Shown in pieces: positions 4,794 to 13,852 of a stretch of DNA of 38,495 bases. Under the pieces are notes generated by a model. The model made no database searches, was not told where the DNA came from, and saw only the letters and a program-made list of their open reading frames with translations. The position numbers and the translations under genes were made by a program. Origin of the DNA: Alphaproteobacteria bacterium (GTDB lineage: Bacteria; Pseudomonadota; Alphaproteobacteria; UBA11222); the NCBI GenBank assembly GCA_023252275.1, contig JAHHGO010000003.1:1-38495 (forward strand). Reading direction: 5' to 3'. Numbering within the stretch: position 1 is the first letter of the stretch; every line of letters starts with the position of its first letter.

Positions 4794-5648
4794 TTAGCGG
4801 ACTGTGGCGGCTGACGCCAGTCCGACGGGCTGCTGCACCGGAGACGAGGCGTGTTTAACTTTGGCTTCCTCAAGCCAGGCTGCAAAAGCCTTCTTGCTGA
4901 CTACCTTCAGGGCCATTGGCATGAAGGCATGCCGCGAGCCGCAGATTTCCGAGCATTGGCCATAGAAGGTGCCTTCGCGCGTGGCCTTGTACCAGGTTTC
5001 ATTCAACTGTCCCGGCACGGCATCGATTTTCACACCCATAACCGGCATTGCGAAAGCATGGATGACATCGGATGCCGTTGTCTGCACCCGAATCGTCGTA
5101 TCCACGGGCACTACGATATCATTGTCCACGGCCAGCAGGCGCGGCGCGTCAGCGGGACGGTCGGCGTCTTCCAGCATGGTGATGTCGTAGGTTAGCGAAT
5201 CATGATCAGGATATTCGACGTTCCAGAACCATTGGTTGCCCGTCAATTTCAGGGTCATTTCTGCTTCGGGCACCACGTCGGCCCGATAAAGCAGCCGGAA
5301 CGAGGGGATGGCCATCACCACGAGAATTATAATCGGGACCACCGTCCAGATGATTTCAAGCGGGGTATTATGCGTATTGGTCGACGGAACAGGATTGGCC
5401 CGCGAATTGAAGCGCAGCATCACATATAGCAGCAGCGCCAGTACAAACAGCGTGATGCCGGTGATCAGGATAAGCAGGATATGATGAAAGCTGGTGATGT
5501 TTTCCATGACAGGCGAGGCGGCCGGTTGGAAGCCCATCTGCCAATTGTAAGCTGTTTCAGCCAGCGCTGAGCCAGCGGATAAAAAAACCGCAAGGGCGGC
5601 GCCTAATGCTAGCCGCGCTGAGCAGCAGAACCGGGTAATAGAAGACAT
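4794..5648 (-). CDS. ctaC: Cytochrome c oxidase subunit II
   Basis: The product has 284 residues. A signal sequence ends near ALAETAYNW. Two membrane helices follow (about 50-75 and 95-115), then a periplasmic cupredoxin domain. The CuA ligands are all present: His in DVIHAFAMP and the set CSEICGSRHAFMPM (C-x3-C-x3-H-x2-M). This subunit takes electrons from cytochrome c and passes them to haem a. An AGGA ribosome site lies 7 nt before the ATG. It is the first gene of the oxidase operon and follows a good candidate promoter. The C-terminal tail after residue 260 is low-complexity. Confidence 0.97.
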   Translation of the reverse strand: MSSITRFCCSARLALGAALAVFLSAGSALAETAYNWQMGFQPAASPVMENITSFHHILLILITGITLFVLALLLYVMLRFNSRANPVPSTNTHNTPLEIIWTVVPIIILVVMAIPSFRLLYRADVVPEAEMTLKLTGNQWFWNVEYPDHDSLTYDITMLEDADRPADAPRLLAVDNDIVVPVDTTIRVQTTASDVIHAFAMPVMGVKIDAVPGQLNETWYKATREGTFYGQCSEICGSRHAFMPMALKVVSKKAFAAWLEEAKVKHASSPVQQPVGLASAATVR

Positions 5649-5871: not shown

Positions 5872-6414
5872 TTATGGTTTGGGCTGCCGGTATGTGGCGG
5901 CGCGCGCCGCATCGCCCTCTGCGGCCACCTCATAGAGCGGCTTTAGCATGGTTGCTATATCTATGCGTCCCTGGTCCATGGATTGTTGTAGCGCCCAGAT
6001 CAATTTGTCGCTGAGCCTTCGGGTATATTCAGGCACTTCCGGATCAACGCCTCCGCCCAATGGAGGCCGGTTGCCGCTGGCTGTGCGCGTGTCCACGGCC
6101 ACCTGTTCCGCCTTGCGCGCTTCCTGCGCGATCACTCCCAAAACCGCCGCCAGTTGCGGCAGATCCATTTCCAATGATTGCTCTATGGCCCAGATCAGCT
6201 TATCCGAAAGCCGGCGCGTGTAGCGGATCGTGTCGCCCTTATCGAGTATGCTCTGCCGAACGGCCAGCCACTTTTTGTACTCGGCAAGATCATTGGCTAC
6301 AACCGCGTCGGCCAGCGCCCGCGCGGCGACATTCTGCGCCGAAGGCCCATGCCTGCCGATCAGCGAATCGGCCAGGTCTGAAATTTCCTGCGCATTGGCC
6401 ACACTTGGGGACAT
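5872..6414 (-). CDS. Unrecognised protein with an internal YTRRLSDKLIWA duplication
   Basis: I do not recognise this protein (180 residues from the second ATG). The ORF track starts at 6420, but GGGAG is only two bases from that ATG and eight from the ATG at 6414, so 6414 is preferred. There is no signal peptide or membrane helix. Residues are numbered from the track start. Residues 1-60 look helical (DLADSLIGRHGPSAQNVAAR). Two copies of a ~31-residue unit follow at about 67-97 and 132-166, both beginning YTRRLSDKLIWA and joined by a Gly/Pro-rich linker (GNRPPLGGGVDPEVP). It sits between divergent tldD and codirectional ctaC, 223 nt from the latter, so it is probably a separate transcript. 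The duplication suggests a pseudo-dimeric helical fold. Function unknown. Confidence 0.8.
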   Translation of the reverse strand: MSPSVANAQEISDLADSLIGRHGPSAQNVAARALADAVVANDLAEYKKWLAVRQSILDKGDTIRYTRRLSDKLIWAIEQSLEMDLPQLAAVLGVIAQEARKAEQVAVDTRTASGNRPPLGGGVDPEVPEYTRRLSDKLIWALQQSMDQGRIDIATMLKPLYEVAAEGDAARAATYRQPKP

Positions 6415-6420
6415 ATTCAT

Positions 6421-6553
6421 AACTCCCGGCAGGTTGCACTGTTTTCAATGGCTTTGGATTACTATATTCAGTGTATTATATATGCCGCAGTGATTTGCAT
6501 AGGCGATTGCCGCATCAGTTCAACACAGTTTGACCGCCCGAAAGGAATGAAAA
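6421..6553. promoter_or_regulatory. AT-rich divergent promoter region
   Basis: This 133-nt spacer separates the minus-strand duplicated-motif gene from plus-strand tldD. It contains an AT-rich block (ACTATATTCAGTGTATTATA). Read minus-strand this gives a TATAAT hexamer, and read plus-strand it gives TATATA 17 nt after TTGGAT. The hexamers are weak on the -35 side, so exact promoters are not assigned. Confidence 0.35.
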
Positions 6554-8011
6554 TTGACCGATGCAGCATCCAGAGGCGGATTTTCCGGCCAGACATCTGA
6601 GCATCTTTTCTTCAATCAGTCTGGTATGGACCGGCGCCGGGTGCAGTCGATTGTTGATGACGCCCTTAATCGCGGCGATGATGGTGAATTGTTCCTGGAA
6701 TATTCGGTTTCGGAAAGCTTCGTATTTGACGATGGCAGGCTTAAAAATGCGGCCTTTGATACCGGCCAGGGCTTTGGATTGCGGTCTGTGGCGGGTGAGG
6801 CCACCGGCTATGCCCATGCCGCCGAATTAAGCGAATCGGCGATTGCCCGGGCGGCCCAAACCGTTCGAGCGGTGCAGAGCGGCAAGTCCGGACAAGTATC
6901 AGCAGGCCCTGTGCGGACTAATCAGTCACTGTACAGTCCGGATAATCCGCTGGATACGGCCAGCTTCGAGACCAAGATCAAGCTTCTGGAAGATATCAAC
7001 GCCTATGCCCGCAGTCTGGACCCGCGGGTGCGCCAGGTTTCCTGCTCGCTGGCGGGAGAATGGCGGGTGGTGGAGATTATCCGCCCGGGCGGAGAAAGTG
7101 TTCATGATATCCGGCCCTTGGTCCGCCTGAACGTGTCTGTCGTGGCGGGTGACGGCGACCGCCAGGAATCCGGCAGCTATGGGGCGGGTGGACGTAACGG
7201 TTATACTGCCTATCTTTCACCAGAAAACTGGCAGCCTTTTGTAAAGGAGGCGCTGCGGCAGGCGCTGGTCAATCTGCAATCCGTTCCCGCTCCGGCGGGT
7301 GAGCAGATGGTTGTGCTGGGGCCGGGCTGGCCCGGAATTCTGCTGCATGAAGCGATCGGGCATGGTCTGGAAGGCGATTTCAACCGTAAGAAAACCAGTG
7401 CTTTTGCGGGCTTGCTGGGGCAACAGGTGGCGGCGAAGGGGGTCACCATCGTGGATGATGGCACTTTGCCCGGGCGGCGCGGCTCATTAAGTGTGGATGA
7501 TGAGGGAACCCCTACCGCAAATACGGTATTGATAGAGGATGGCATCCTTAAAGGCTACATTCATGACCGGCTCAATGCCCGGTTGATGGGTATGACCCCA
7601 ACGGGCAATGGCCGCAGGCAATCTTATGCCCATATGCCCATGCCGCGCATGACCAATACCTATATGCTTTCTGGCGCAAATGACCCGGCGGAAATTCTCG
7701 CCTCGGTAAAAAATGGCATTTATGCCGTTTCCTTTGGCGGCGGGCAGGTTGATATTACCAGTGGAAAATTCGTCTTTTCATGCACCGAAGCCTATCGCAT
7801 TGAAAATGGCAAGGTTGGCGCGCCCATCAAGGGCGCGACGCTGATCGGCAATGGTCCTGAGGTGCTGAAGCGGGTGGCCATGATTGGAAATGACATGCAA
7901 CTGGACCCAGGCATCGGCACCTGCGGCAAAAGCGGGCAGGGCGTTCCGGTCGGGGTCGGCTTGCCGACGATACGGATCGATGGGCTGACAGTTGGGGGTA
8001 CTGCGGGCTGA
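6554..8011 (+). CDS. tldD: Metalloprotease TldD
   Basis: This is the TldD half of the TldD/PmbA (TldE) zinc protease, which trims unfolded peptides and matures some microcins and antitoxins. The 485-residue length is typical. The zinc-binding HExxxH is visible as LHEAIGHGLEGDFNRKKTSAF, with the first His at about residue 265. Other family segments are GFGLRSVAGEATGYAHA near the N-terminus and TNTYMLSGANDPAEILASVKNGIY near the C-terminus. The start is TTG at 6554, with AAAGGA a few bases upstream and no better ATG in frame. tldD next to the ctaC cluster is a common alphaproteobacterial arrangement. The partner gene pmbA is not in the window. Confidence 0.96.
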   Translation: MTDAASRGGFSGQTSEHLFFNQSGMDRRRVQSIVDDALNRGDDGELFLEYSVSESFVFDDGRLKNAAFDTGQGFGLRSVAGEATGYAHAAELSESAIARAAQTVRAVQSGKSGQVSAGPVRTNQSLYSPDNPLDTASFETKIKLLEDINAYARSLDPRVRQVSCSLAGEWRVVEIIRPGGESVHDIRPLVRLNVSVVAGDGDRQESGSYGAGGRNGYTAYLSPENWQPFVKEALRQALVNLQSVPAPAGEQMVVLGPGWPGILLHEAIGHGLEGDFNRKKTSAFAGLLGQQVAAKGVTIVDDGTLPGRRGSLSVDDEGTPTANTVLIEDGILKGYIHDRLNARLMGMTPTGNGRRQSYAHMPMPRMTNTYMLSGANDPAEILASVKNGIYAVSFGGGQVDITSGKFVFSCTEAYRIENGKVGAPIKGATLIGNGPEVLKRVAMIGNDMQLDPGIGTCGKSGQGVPVGVGLPTIRIDGLTVGGTAG

Positions 8012-8128
8012 CGGGCTTTCCCATTTCAGCCAGGGCGATCCTGTTTCCCACGGAAAAATACTCGCCGGTAGCACCCCCCAATTATGCGTTGAATCCCTGT
8101 ATCACTAAATCTTGATCGGCGCAGGACA

Positions 8129-8164
8129 TAGGATATCCCTGAGGATATCCCTGAGGATATGCCT
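8129..8164. repeat. Three tandem 12-nt GGATATCC-type repeats
   Basis: The unit GAGGATATCCCT occurs three times at a 12-nt period (first copy TAGGATATCCCT, third GAGGATATGCCT). Each of the first two holds the palindrome GGATATCC. The block is flanked by CATAGG and CCTATG, making the whole nearly palindromic. It lies about 100 nt upstream of the DUF1329 gene, so it could be an operator array or simple local slippage. Confidence 0.75.
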
Positions 8165-8215
8165 ATGCTCCCCCTTAATAACGTTTTGTTGAATTGTGCA
8201 TCCGGACTGCTCCAT

Positions 8216-8244
8216 GTCAGGTTGCCTCAGGGAGTGAACCTGAC
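8216..8244 (+). other. Stem-loop in the DUF1329 leader
   Basis: A perfect 8-bp inverted repeat GTCAGGTT / AACCTGAC with a 13-nt loop ends ten bases before the GGAG ribosome site of the DUF1329 gene. It could stabilise the mRNA 5' end or modulate translation. It is not a recognised riboswitch. Confidence 0.45.
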
Positions 8245-8265
8245 AATCCGCATGGAGAACCATAA

Positions 8266-9639
8266 ATGACAACCAAGAATATTCTTTTTACTGCGGCGAT
8301 TGCGGGGCTGCTGTCTTCAGCGGCTTTTGCTGGTGTGCCGCCAGAAGTGGCCGATCGTCTTGGCAAGGATCTGACGCCGATGGGCTCGCAGAAATCGGGC
8401 AACAAGGAAGGCACGATCCCGGAATGGACGGGCGGCCTGTCTCATCCGCCGTCGAATGTCACGTACAAGATCGGCGACCGTCACCCGGATCCGTATGCGG
8501 ATGACAAGATACTGTTCACCATCACGGCTGCGAACATAGGGCAGTACGAAAAGAACCTGGGCGAATTGCCCAAGGCGATGTTCAAGAGCTATCCTGACAC
8601 GTACAAGGTGAATGTCTATCAGACCCGCCGCTCTTGCGCGCAGCCGCCCGCGGTGTATGAAGTAGTGAAGAGCAACGCGCTCAACAGCGTCGGCTCACCA
8701 ACCGGCGCAGGCTTCACGGGCGCCATCCGTTCCACGGCGTTCCCGATTCCGAGCACTTCCCAGGAAATAATGTGGAACCATAAGCTGAAGTTCCGCAATT
8801 TCAAGGCAACCCGCCAGTTCGGCTTTGCCGCGCCTACCCGCAGCGGCGACTTTACGCTCTATGTTGCGCAGGATGATGTATATCAGATGTATGGCGATCC
8901 TGCGGTGAAGGATGTGTCGGAACTCAATAACATCTCACTCAAATATATCTCGAACACCATCGCTCCGGCGCGGAGTGCGGGTAATGTGGTCCTGATTCAT
9001 GAAACCATCAACGTTTCGGAAGGGGCGCGCAAGGCCTGGGTGTACAGCCCTGGCACCCGTCGCGTCCGCCGCGCGCCGAACATCGCCTATGATAACCCGC
9101 TGACCAACTCGGATGGCATGGACGCCACTGACAATTTCGGCGGCTATAATGGCGCCACTGACCGTTATGACTGGTCCTATGTCGGGCGTCAGGAAGCCTA
9201 TATGCCCAACAACAATTTCCGGTTTGCGCAACGTGACCTGCAATACAAGGACATCCTGATCCCCGGCGGCCATCTAAATCAGGATGTTGTGCGTTACGAG
9301 TTACAGCGCGCACATATTCTGGAGGCCAATGTTCGTCCGGAAACCCGGCATATCTATCCGCGGCGGCAATTCTGGATTGAGGAAGATAGCTGGTTTGTAT
9401 TGCAGAATACCGCCTATGACGCGCGTGGCGACATGTGGCGGCTGCACGAACAGTTCTCCATGACCTATTACGAGGTTCCGGTTTGTGACCGCGTCGGCGC
9501 GGCCACCTATGATCTGAATGCGGGCCGTTATCTCGCCGGGTCTTTGGTCAATCAGGAGGCTCAGATCAGCTGGAATGCCGACGAACTGAAGGAGGATCGC
9601 TACACTCCCGACGCGATCCGCCGGCTGGGTGTCCGTTAA
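8266..9639 (+). CDS. Exported DUF1329-family protein
   Basis: The product has 457 residues with a clear cleavable signal (MTTKNILFTAAIAGLLSSAA, cleavage likely after AFA). The mature start GVPPEVADRLGKDLTPMGSQ and the segment GTIPEWTGG are characteristic of DUF1329 proteins. That is a LolA/LolB-like periplasmic or outer-membrane-associated family, usually encoded beside a DUF1302 outer-membrane protein. No DUF1302 gene is here, so it is an orphan. A GGAG ribosome site lies 8 nt before the ATG. Arg codons are often CGT, with AAG and AAC favoured; with the strong terminator this suggests high expression (inference). Exact function unknown; a role in envelope lipid or hydrophobic-substrate handling is plausible. 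Confidence 0.88.
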   Translation: MTTKNILFTAAIAGLLSSAAFAGVPPEVADRLGKDLTPMGSQKSGNKEGTIPEWTGGLSHPPSNVTYKIGDRHPDPYADDKILFTITAANIGQYEKNLGELPKAMFKSYPDTYKVNVYQTRRSCAQPPAVYEVVKSNALNSVGSPTGAGFTGAIRSTAFPIPSTSQEIMWNHKLKFRNFKATRQFGFAAPTRSGDFTLYVAQDDVYQMYGDPAVKDVSELNNISLKYISNTIAPARSAGNVVLIHETINVSEGARKAWVYSPGTRRVRRAPNIAYDNPLTNSDGMDATDNFGGYNGATDRYDWSYVGRQEAYMPNNNFRFAQRDLQYKDILIPGGHLNQDVVRYELQRAHILEANVRPETRHIYPRRQFWIEEDSWFVLQNTAYDARGDMWRLHEQFSMTYYEVPVCDRVGAATYDLNAGRYLAGSLVNQEAQISWNADELKEDRYTPDAIRRLGVR

Positions 9640-12137: not shown

Positions 12138-13232
12138 ATGCGGCTGCGCAATAACGTACAAACCTATGGCCTTGTTGCCAGAGCTTTTCACTGGGGCGCG
12201 GCGCTTCTGGTGTTTATATTGCTGCCGCTTGGCTGGTATATGCATGAGCTGCCGCTCGGGCTGGCGCGCTATCGCTATGTGGAGTGGCACAAATCGCTTG
12301 GCCTGCTTCTGTTGATCCTGATGCTGGGCCGCAGCCTGTGGCGGGCCTTCAATCCGCCGCCGCAGCTGCCGGACACATTGCCGCGCTGGGAATTACTGGC
12401 CGCCAAACTGACGCATTGGGCATTATATGGCGCGCTGTTATTACAGGTTTCTGCCGGCATGGCGCTGGTGTGGGCGGCCAATTCTCCGCTGCTGTTTTTT
12501 GGCTGGTTCGCCGTACCCAGTCCGATAGATGCCGATAAACCTCTGCGGCATTTGATGGAGGAAGCACACGAGCTGCTGGCCTTTGTCATCGTCCTGTTGC
12601 TGTTAATGCATATTGGCGCGGCATTGCGGCATCATTTTATTCTGAAGAATGATATTTTGCAGCGTATGCTGGGCATGTTTCTGATTGTAGGCGGGGCGAT
12701 CGGCGTCAGGCCGGCAGAGGCGGCGATGTGGAATGTGCAGAAATCCAGCCAGTTGCTGTTTCATTTCACACAAAGCAGCCTGCCCTATACGGGCAAGTTT
12801 GAACAGTTCGAAGCGCGTATTGATTTTGATCCGGACAGGCCGGAGGAGGGACGCATTAATGTAATGATTGATATGGCCAGCCTTGATACGCAAAATTCCG
12901 AACGCGACACGATTTTACGTTCGGCTGAAATGTTTGACGCCGAAAAATTTCCCCAAGCGCAATTTGTTGCGGACAAGATCCGGGCCATTGCTCCGGGCAA
13001 ATATGAGGCGGTGGGCATTCTGACCATTCGGGACATTTCTCAGGCGCTGATATTGCCTTTTGATCTAAAGATTGAAAAAGATGCCGCCAATGGTGATCAT
13101 GCCAGCGCCGCGGGAAGCATTGCAATTTCCCGGCGCGATTTCGGCCTGGCGCGCGGGCAATGGGAGGCGGCGGATATTGTGGCCGATGAGGTTAAGATTG
13201 AAATCAGGTTGGAAGCCGCGCAACAGCGGTAA
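12138..13232 (+). CDS. Cytochrome b561 - YceI fusion protein
   Basis: A two-domain protein of 364 residues. Residues 1-165 are a bacterial b561-type di-haem membrane domain with four helices and candidate haem ligands H18 (ARAFHWGAA), H51 (VEWHKSLG), H144 (EEAHELLAF) and H158 (LLLMHIGAA). A further hydrophobic stretch (about 177-196) leads into a periplasmic YceI lipocalin-like domain (WNVQKSSQLLFHFTQSSLPY to the C-terminus). YceI proteins bind polyprenoid or quinone-like lipids, so the fusion may couple membrane electron transfer to a bound isoprenoid. That is inference. A second, separate YceI gene follows 26 nt later. Confidence 0.9.
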   Translation: MRLRNNVQTYGLVARAFHWGAALLVFILLPLGWYMHELPLGLARYRYVEWHKSLGLLLLILMLGRSLWRAFNPPPQLPDTLPRWELLAAKLTHWALYGALLLQVSAGMALVWAANSPLLFFGWFAVPSPIDADKPLRHLMEEAHELLAFVIVLLLLMHIGAALRHHFILKNDILQRMLGMFLIVGGAIGVRPAEAAMWNVQKSSQLLFHFTQSSLPYTGKFEQFEARIDFDPDRPEEGRINVMIDMASLDTQNSERDTILRSAEMFDAEKFPQAQFVADKIRAIAPGKYEAVGILTIRDISQALILPFDLKIEKDAANGDHASAAGSIAISRRDFGLARGQWEAADIVADEVKIEIRLEAAQQR

Positions 13233-13258: not shown

Positions 13259-13852
13259 ATGCTGAATTCGAAACGCCTATTGCCGGTTTTTCTAATGCTT
13301 CTGACGCCAGCAAGCCTAGCCTTGCCAGCGTCGGCGGCGGACCAATATCTGCTCGACGCCAGCCATACATCGGTGATGTTTGGCGTGTCGCATCTCGGAT
13401 TTTCCAGGGCTCTGGGAACATTCAACAAGGTTGAAGGCGCTTTAACGCTGGATGCGGAAGAGCCGGAAAAATCATCCGTGGTCGTTACAATTGACGCCGC
13501 CAGCATAGACACCAATCACGCCGAACGCGATGAACATATGCGCAATAAGGATTTCTTCGATGTCGCGCAGTTTCCAACGCTTATCTATAAAAGCACATCA
13601 GTGAAAGTGACGGGCGACAAGACCGCCACCATCACCGGCGATCTGACACTGCATGGGGTCACGAAAGCTGTTCCGCTGGAAGTGACGCTGGTAAAGGCCG
13701 GGCCGCATCCGGTCGATAAAACCCGGACGATTGCCGGTTTTTCTGCGCGCGGCACGTTGAAACGCTCTGAATTCGGCATGACCTACGGCCTGCCTTTGCT
13801 GGGTGATGAGGTTGAGATCATCATCGACTCGGAAACCATCAAGCAGCCTTAG
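13259..13852 (+). CDS. YceI family periplasmic protein
   Basis: The product has 197 residues with a signal peptide (LLPVFLMLLTPASLALPASA, cleavage near ASAADQY) and one YceI domain. YLLDASHTSVMFGVSHLGFS is the typical first strand pair, and HGVTKAVPLEVTL and GTLKRSEFGMTYGLP are later family segments. YceI proteins are lipocalin-like barrels that bind isoprenoid chains. GGGAG lies 5 nt before the ATG. It follows the b561-YceI fusion in one probable operon and ends one base before the convergent tfoX-like gene, with no obvious terminator between them. Confidence 0.94.
   Translation: MLNSKRLLPVFLMLLTPASLALPASAADQYLLDASHTSVMFGVSHLGFSRALGTFNKVEGALTLDAEEPEKSSVVVTIDAASIDTNHAERDEHMRNKDFFDVAQFPTLIYKSTSVKVTGDKTATITGDLTLHGVTKAVPLEVTLVKAGPHPVDKTRTIAGFSARGTLKRSEFGMTYGLPLLGDEVEIIIDSETIKQP

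Follow-up and report, generated by a model that had tools for sequence, protein, structure and literature searches.

A putative all-helical protein with a duplicated RRLSDK hairpin unit, encoded between tldD and ctaC in one alphaproteobacterial genus

Results

The two-unit gene and its start site

The window, that is, the whole 38,495-nucleotide stretch of DNA analysed here, carries between tldD and ctaC a gene whose product contains two copies of a ~41-residue unit (Table 1). The complete frame (5872–6420, minus strand) codes for 182 aa, and the residue numbering below follows this reading (P0001). We prefer the start at 6414 to that at 6420, since the orthologues share the same initiating methionine and, in each of the four species (the window and three orthologues), a GGAG/GGGAG Shine–Dalgarno-like motif precedes it at a spacing suited to ribosome binding. 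The predicted protein is acidic (pI 5.5) and cysteine-free, and inspection of its sequence revealed no evident membrane segment or signal peptide. The flanking genes, which we take to be tldD and ctaC, were named by sequence recognition.

Table 1. Features of the two-unit gene and of its neighbours in the window
Feature	Position	Strand	Extent and basis
Two-unit protein CDS	5872..6414	−	180 aa from the preferred start; alternative ATG at 6420
Shine–Dalgarno-like GGGAG	6423..6427	−	8 bases upstream of the preferred ATG (6414); seen in the sequence
N-terminal helical domain, distant DUF6961 relative	6238..6387	−	residues 12–61; profile comparison and model helices
Unit 1, predicted helical hairpin	6103..6225	−	residues 66–106; core YTRRLSDKLIWA at 6187–6222; model helices 71–84, 88–113
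Variable linker, Pro/Gly-rich	6031..6102	−	residues 107–130; low model confidence
Unit 2, predicted helical hairpin	5908..6030	−	residues 131–171; core YTRRLSDKLIWA at 5992–6027; model helices 136–149, 153–178
tldD (presumed), divergent neighbour (context)	6554..8011	+	homologues in all 16 genomes searched
ctaC (presumed), first gene of ctaC-D-B-G-E, downstream (context)	4794..5648	−	tblastn to other alphaproteobacterial cta operons

An old duplication maintained by selection

The preliminary description had proposed an old internal duplication, and both parts of this claim hold. Two real units of ~41 residues each are present, and they share the identical 12-residue core YTRRLSDKLIWA (residues 67–78 and 132–143), which is also the longest exact internal repeat of the protein, while the maximum reached in 5000 protein shuffles was 6. 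Divergence lies outside the core: unit 1 and unit 2 are identical at 17/41 positions and thus no closer to each other than each of them is to the nearest single-unit relatives (18–20/41). As for its age, the duplication predates the divergence of the four species sampled. The two-unit protein was found in all three other sampled species of the genus (Alphaproteobacteria MAGs E23_maxbin.030, Baikal-deep-G66, and UBA11222) with 83, 77, and 63% identity in the search and 61–80% overall identity, both units being present in 4/4 available species, and the gene was not found in the sister genus or in the other relatives searched. In a tree of 24 units, the window-type units and their near relatives split from the short-protein group (100/99), but this tree was built from 41 columns only and does not separate the order of duplication and divergence.

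At the DNA level, the two cores of the window are identical at 24/36 positions, and differences between the units fall in 10 of the 12 core codons, all of them synonymous, which indicates that the likeness of the units is kept by selection on the protein. Comparison of the orthologues revealed purifying selection on the two-unit protein. The units show few replacements, whereas these are frequent in the N-terminal domain and the linker (33/41 columns of unit 2 are invariant among the four orthologues vs. 7/24 of the linker), and the core of unit 2 differs between any two orthologues by 4–8 synonymous changes and no replacement. Considering the synonymous core differences and the rarity of replacements in the units, we concluded from these alignments that the identical cores are due to selection on the protein and do not reflect a recent DNA duplication. 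We rejected gene conversion as the only reason for the identity of the cores, since in three of the four species the units differ in the majority of their core codons (10, 8, and 7 of 12 synonymous differences between the units). In the remaining one (L006), 8/12 core codons are identical between the units, which makes some homogenisation of the cores possible there. That the gene is a chance or spurious reading frame, as the lack of any database family might suggest, has a vanishingly small probability in view of the four orthologues, the strong purifying selection, and the conserved Shine–Dalgarno motif and start.

Predicted structure

AlphaFold2 modelling from the four orthologues gave an all-helical model with a mean pLDDT of 63.5 and a pTM of 0.56. 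The N-terminal helices (residues 5–41 and 45–60) were predicted mostly with pLDDT 80–90, the two hairpins with about 50–71, and residues 107–134 in the linker region with <50. The helical pair suspected earlier was therefore predicted, with modest confidence, and the unit probably folds as a helical hairpin. Neither Foldseek nor PDB sequence searches found a significantly similar solved structure.

Relationship of the N-terminal domain to DUF6961

P0001 had no sequence match in Pfam, NCBIfam, PHROG, or PDB, it matched no HTH family above the cut-off, and Pfam and NCBIfam hold no entry for the unit, either in its tandem or in its single form. TetR_C_14 (15.6 bits) and phnR_burk (12.5 bits) were rejected as identities because both scores were far below the cut-off. 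A profile of the N-terminal domain, however, matched small proteins in two genera, which led to a group of open frames of roughly 60–170 aa, where 7 of the 11 aligned members match PF22284 (DUF6961, small proteins of unknown function) at E ≤ 0.01. Aligning the N-terminal domain with this DUF6961-like group by hhalign gave a score of 46.1 (probability 96.3, E 1.8e-9), as against at most 17.5 for 100 column shuffles and 12.2 for the reversed alignment, which argues for homology. About 50 residues align by profile, with a common A-x2-L-[IVF]-x2-[HY]-G motif and, in most rows, a Trp in the second half, while the DUF6961 proteins are without the two hairpin units that the window protein adds. Since the window protein misses the Pfam model itself (no match to PF22284 at E ≤ 10), we regard its N-terminal domain on the profile evidence as a distant relative of DUF6961, not as a member.

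TPR-like repeat proteins resemble the window protein in that its units are similarly predicted as paired helices of ~14 and ~26 residues each, and the TPRs of kinesin light chain showed a weak partial similarity to the unit (E 0.15). However, the units differ from TPRs in signature and are spaced 65 residues apart with a variable linker, and neither P0001 nor the unit rows matched TPR or Sel1. The literature search found no paper on DUF6961, DUF2336, or the neighbourhood.

The unit is widespread in Alphaproteobacteria as a single copy

The profile search that had been suggested for one repeat unit recovered the unit widely. A profile built from the eight units of the window's genus only detected single-unit proteins in other alphaproteobacterial families (E down to 4.5e-14), and a broader profile of 22 rows gave matches at E ≤ 0.01 in 46 of 385 alphaproteobacterial genomes, mostly of 1e-10 or better and nearly always located in small open frames. 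The latter profile matched the window units with E 1.9e-19 and 8.0e-17, but these are related to its rows, so the independent support is given by the matches of the window-genus-only profile. In a phylum-level sample, the make-up of which is known only in part, the unit was found only in Alphaproteobacteria; two scans of viral contigs revealed no relatives, and no match came from plasmids searched with a short unit protein and with a winged-helix fusion. Among the genomes searched, none outside the window's genus had tandem units, one unit being the norm elsewhere.

The window protein carries the marks of this RRLSDK hairpin family, namely R-R-L-x-D-K plus the Ala and Ala/Leu positions. Across the wider family R, D, A, A, and L are invariant, and the second R, L, and K nearly so. 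Thus, of the residues previously described as invariant, Arg and Asp keep this status, the second Arg and Lys almost do, and the Trp is limited to near relatives. Similarly, the view that the protein stands outside all families is right insofar as no named family covers it as a whole, but single copies of the unit are widespread and the N-terminal half has DUF6961 as a relative.

Four architectures were distinguished by reading the frames. In the first, proteins of 70–110 aa contain little beyond the unit; in the second, a tail in which LW-FV-AR-Y and AY-W are conserved comes after the unit; in the third, complete proteins of 115–122 aa consist of a window-type N-terminal domain and then one unit, and an eight-row alignment showed these to be collinear, from end to end, with the N-terminal domain plus one unit. 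Single-unit proteins (e.g., L010–L027) share the same ~40-residue unit with the window protein, and a subgroup also the N-terminal domain, but they have one unit in place of two. In the fourth architecture, an OmpR/PhoB-type winged helix precedes the unit, which lies at the C-terminus. Trans_reg_C (PF00486) scored above the cut-off in six unit-bearing proteins from two genomes, and a seventh fusion, from a third genome of the same genus, was recognised by its 73% identity to one of the six. These proteins resemble the window protein in bearing a C-terminal unit, but their winged helix is absent from the window protein, which has no Trans_reg_C match. Among the genomes searched, such fusions came from a single genus, and they apparently represent an undescribed domain combination; several of them lie near genes which, from reading of the frames, we take to encode a response regulator, PAS kinase, or HPt protein. 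The winged-helix paralogues (L142–L147 and L172) belong to genomes G249, G328, and G656, four of them to G249.

A possible partner was indicated by gene order. In the family of G284, single-unit relatives are divergent from a DUF2336 gene in 9/9 cases from two genera, which makes the DUF2336 protein a conserved candidate partner of the single-unit relatives and our best lead; since DUF2336 paralogues are common in these genomes, the linkage is a lead and not proof. The window genome has four DUF2336 genes, none of them within the window. The loci with a divergent DUF2336 gene are L085, L086, L092, and L179–L184.

Position between tldD and the oxidase operon

Each of the four genus members has the gene order tldD (divergent), two-unit gene, ctaC, ctaD. 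The gene interrupts a common arrangement, as the preliminary description stated: tldD and ctaC face apart in the sister genus (G004, G005) without the two-unit gene between them, and they likewise adjoin, facing apart, with no such gene between in G006, G284, G361, G012, and G280. A different gene stands between them in G033, and in G087, G201, and G132 ctaC lies outside the stretch fetched around tldD. The suggestion that the presence of the gene might track with ctaC was not borne out, since in other unit-bearing genomes with tldD beside ctaC the unit gene is located elsewhere. From these comparisons, the gene appears to have been inserted between tldD and ctaC specifically in this lineage, and its position there says little about function.

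A factor for cytochrome oxidase assembly or regulation that joined the cta cluster in this genus would fit the conserved location upstream of ctaC on the same strand in 4/4 genus members, but we consider it distinctly improbable: no linkage of a unit gene to cta was found beyond this one genus in any other unit-bearing genome examined, the relatives named above have tldD and ctaC adjoining without the gene, ~220 bases separate the two-unit gene from ctaC in the window, and the protein has neither Cys nor an evident membrane segment or signal peptide.

The surroundings also vary on the far side of tldD. The relatives L005, L006, and L007 have a ~330 aa gene there that we take to be sulfotransferase-like (motif SAPRTGSTFLMEVL), which is missing from the window (8011–8266), where a presumably DUF1329-like gene (8266–9639) directly follows tldD. 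Farther on, 12138–13232 presumably encodes a b561-type cytochrome apparently fused to a YceI-like domain, followed by what we take to be a separate YceI-like gene (13259–13852), both by recognition.

Discussion

Considering these results, we tentatively propose, with a confidence slightly below even, that the product of the gene is a small adaptor or regulatory protein, cytoplasmic and all-helical, in which a DUF6961-like domain is combined with a duplicated partner-binding hairpin. The RRLSDK hairpins would dock on a partner protein, binding being predicted, and the duplication would create two similar docking sites, while elsewhere in Alphaproteobacteria the hairpin occurs as a single copy, either on its own or joined to a DNA-binding winged helix. 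A regulatory role is suggested by analogy with the winged-helix fusions. Binding of protein rather than of DNA or metal seems probable, since the protein is acidic and cysteine-free, which argues against nucleic-acid binding or metal delivery, and since the fusions have a DNA-binding domain of their own. The conserved Arg, Asp, and Lys, earlier thought to form a binding surface, could equally well serve capping and stabilisation of the hairpin. The medium to low model confidence in the units, with four sequences behind the model, counts against the adaptor reading, as do the failure of Foldseek to find a significant solved relative, the restriction of the fusions to one genus, the absence of a DUF2336 gene beside the window gene, and the general abundance of DUF2336 paralogues in these genomes.

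Two other explanations concern the unit itself. It may self-associate, and the tandem would then be an intramolecular pseudo-dimer, the protein being homodimeric elsewhere. The single unit in relatives vs. two in the window's genus, as well as the invariant Ala/Leu positions, which fit helix packing, are consistent with this, and winged-helix proteins often require a dimerisation part; nevertheless, the units have diverged outside the core and hence are not equivalent, and we judge self-association unlikely. Alternatively, the protein could be a regulator that contacts DNA or RNA directly through its Arg-Arg/Lys motif, the two units sitting on two half-sites. The repeated basic motif and the fusion to winged-helix domains in one genus speak for such a role, but it appears rather improbable, as the protein is acidic, no HTH family was matched, and the winged helix already supplies DNA binding in the fusions, which makes another function of the unit more likely there.

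Beyond the adaptor reading of the window protein, it is conceivable, albeit doubtful, that the RRLSDK hairpin is an undescribed alphaproteobacterial signalling module that recurs in varying combinations: as a stand-alone unit, behind a DUF6961-like domain, behind OmpR-type winged helices close to two-component genes, and as the tandem of this genus, possibly partnered by DUF2336 proteins. The location beside the oxidase operon gives no clue to function. The analysis defines a small protein module that is missed by current family libraries, and it joins three "unknown" alphaproteobacterial sets, namely the stand-alone units, the DUF6961-like proteins, and the unit-tailed winged-helix regulators. 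The tandem protein offers a natural duplicated version of the module for probing what it binds.
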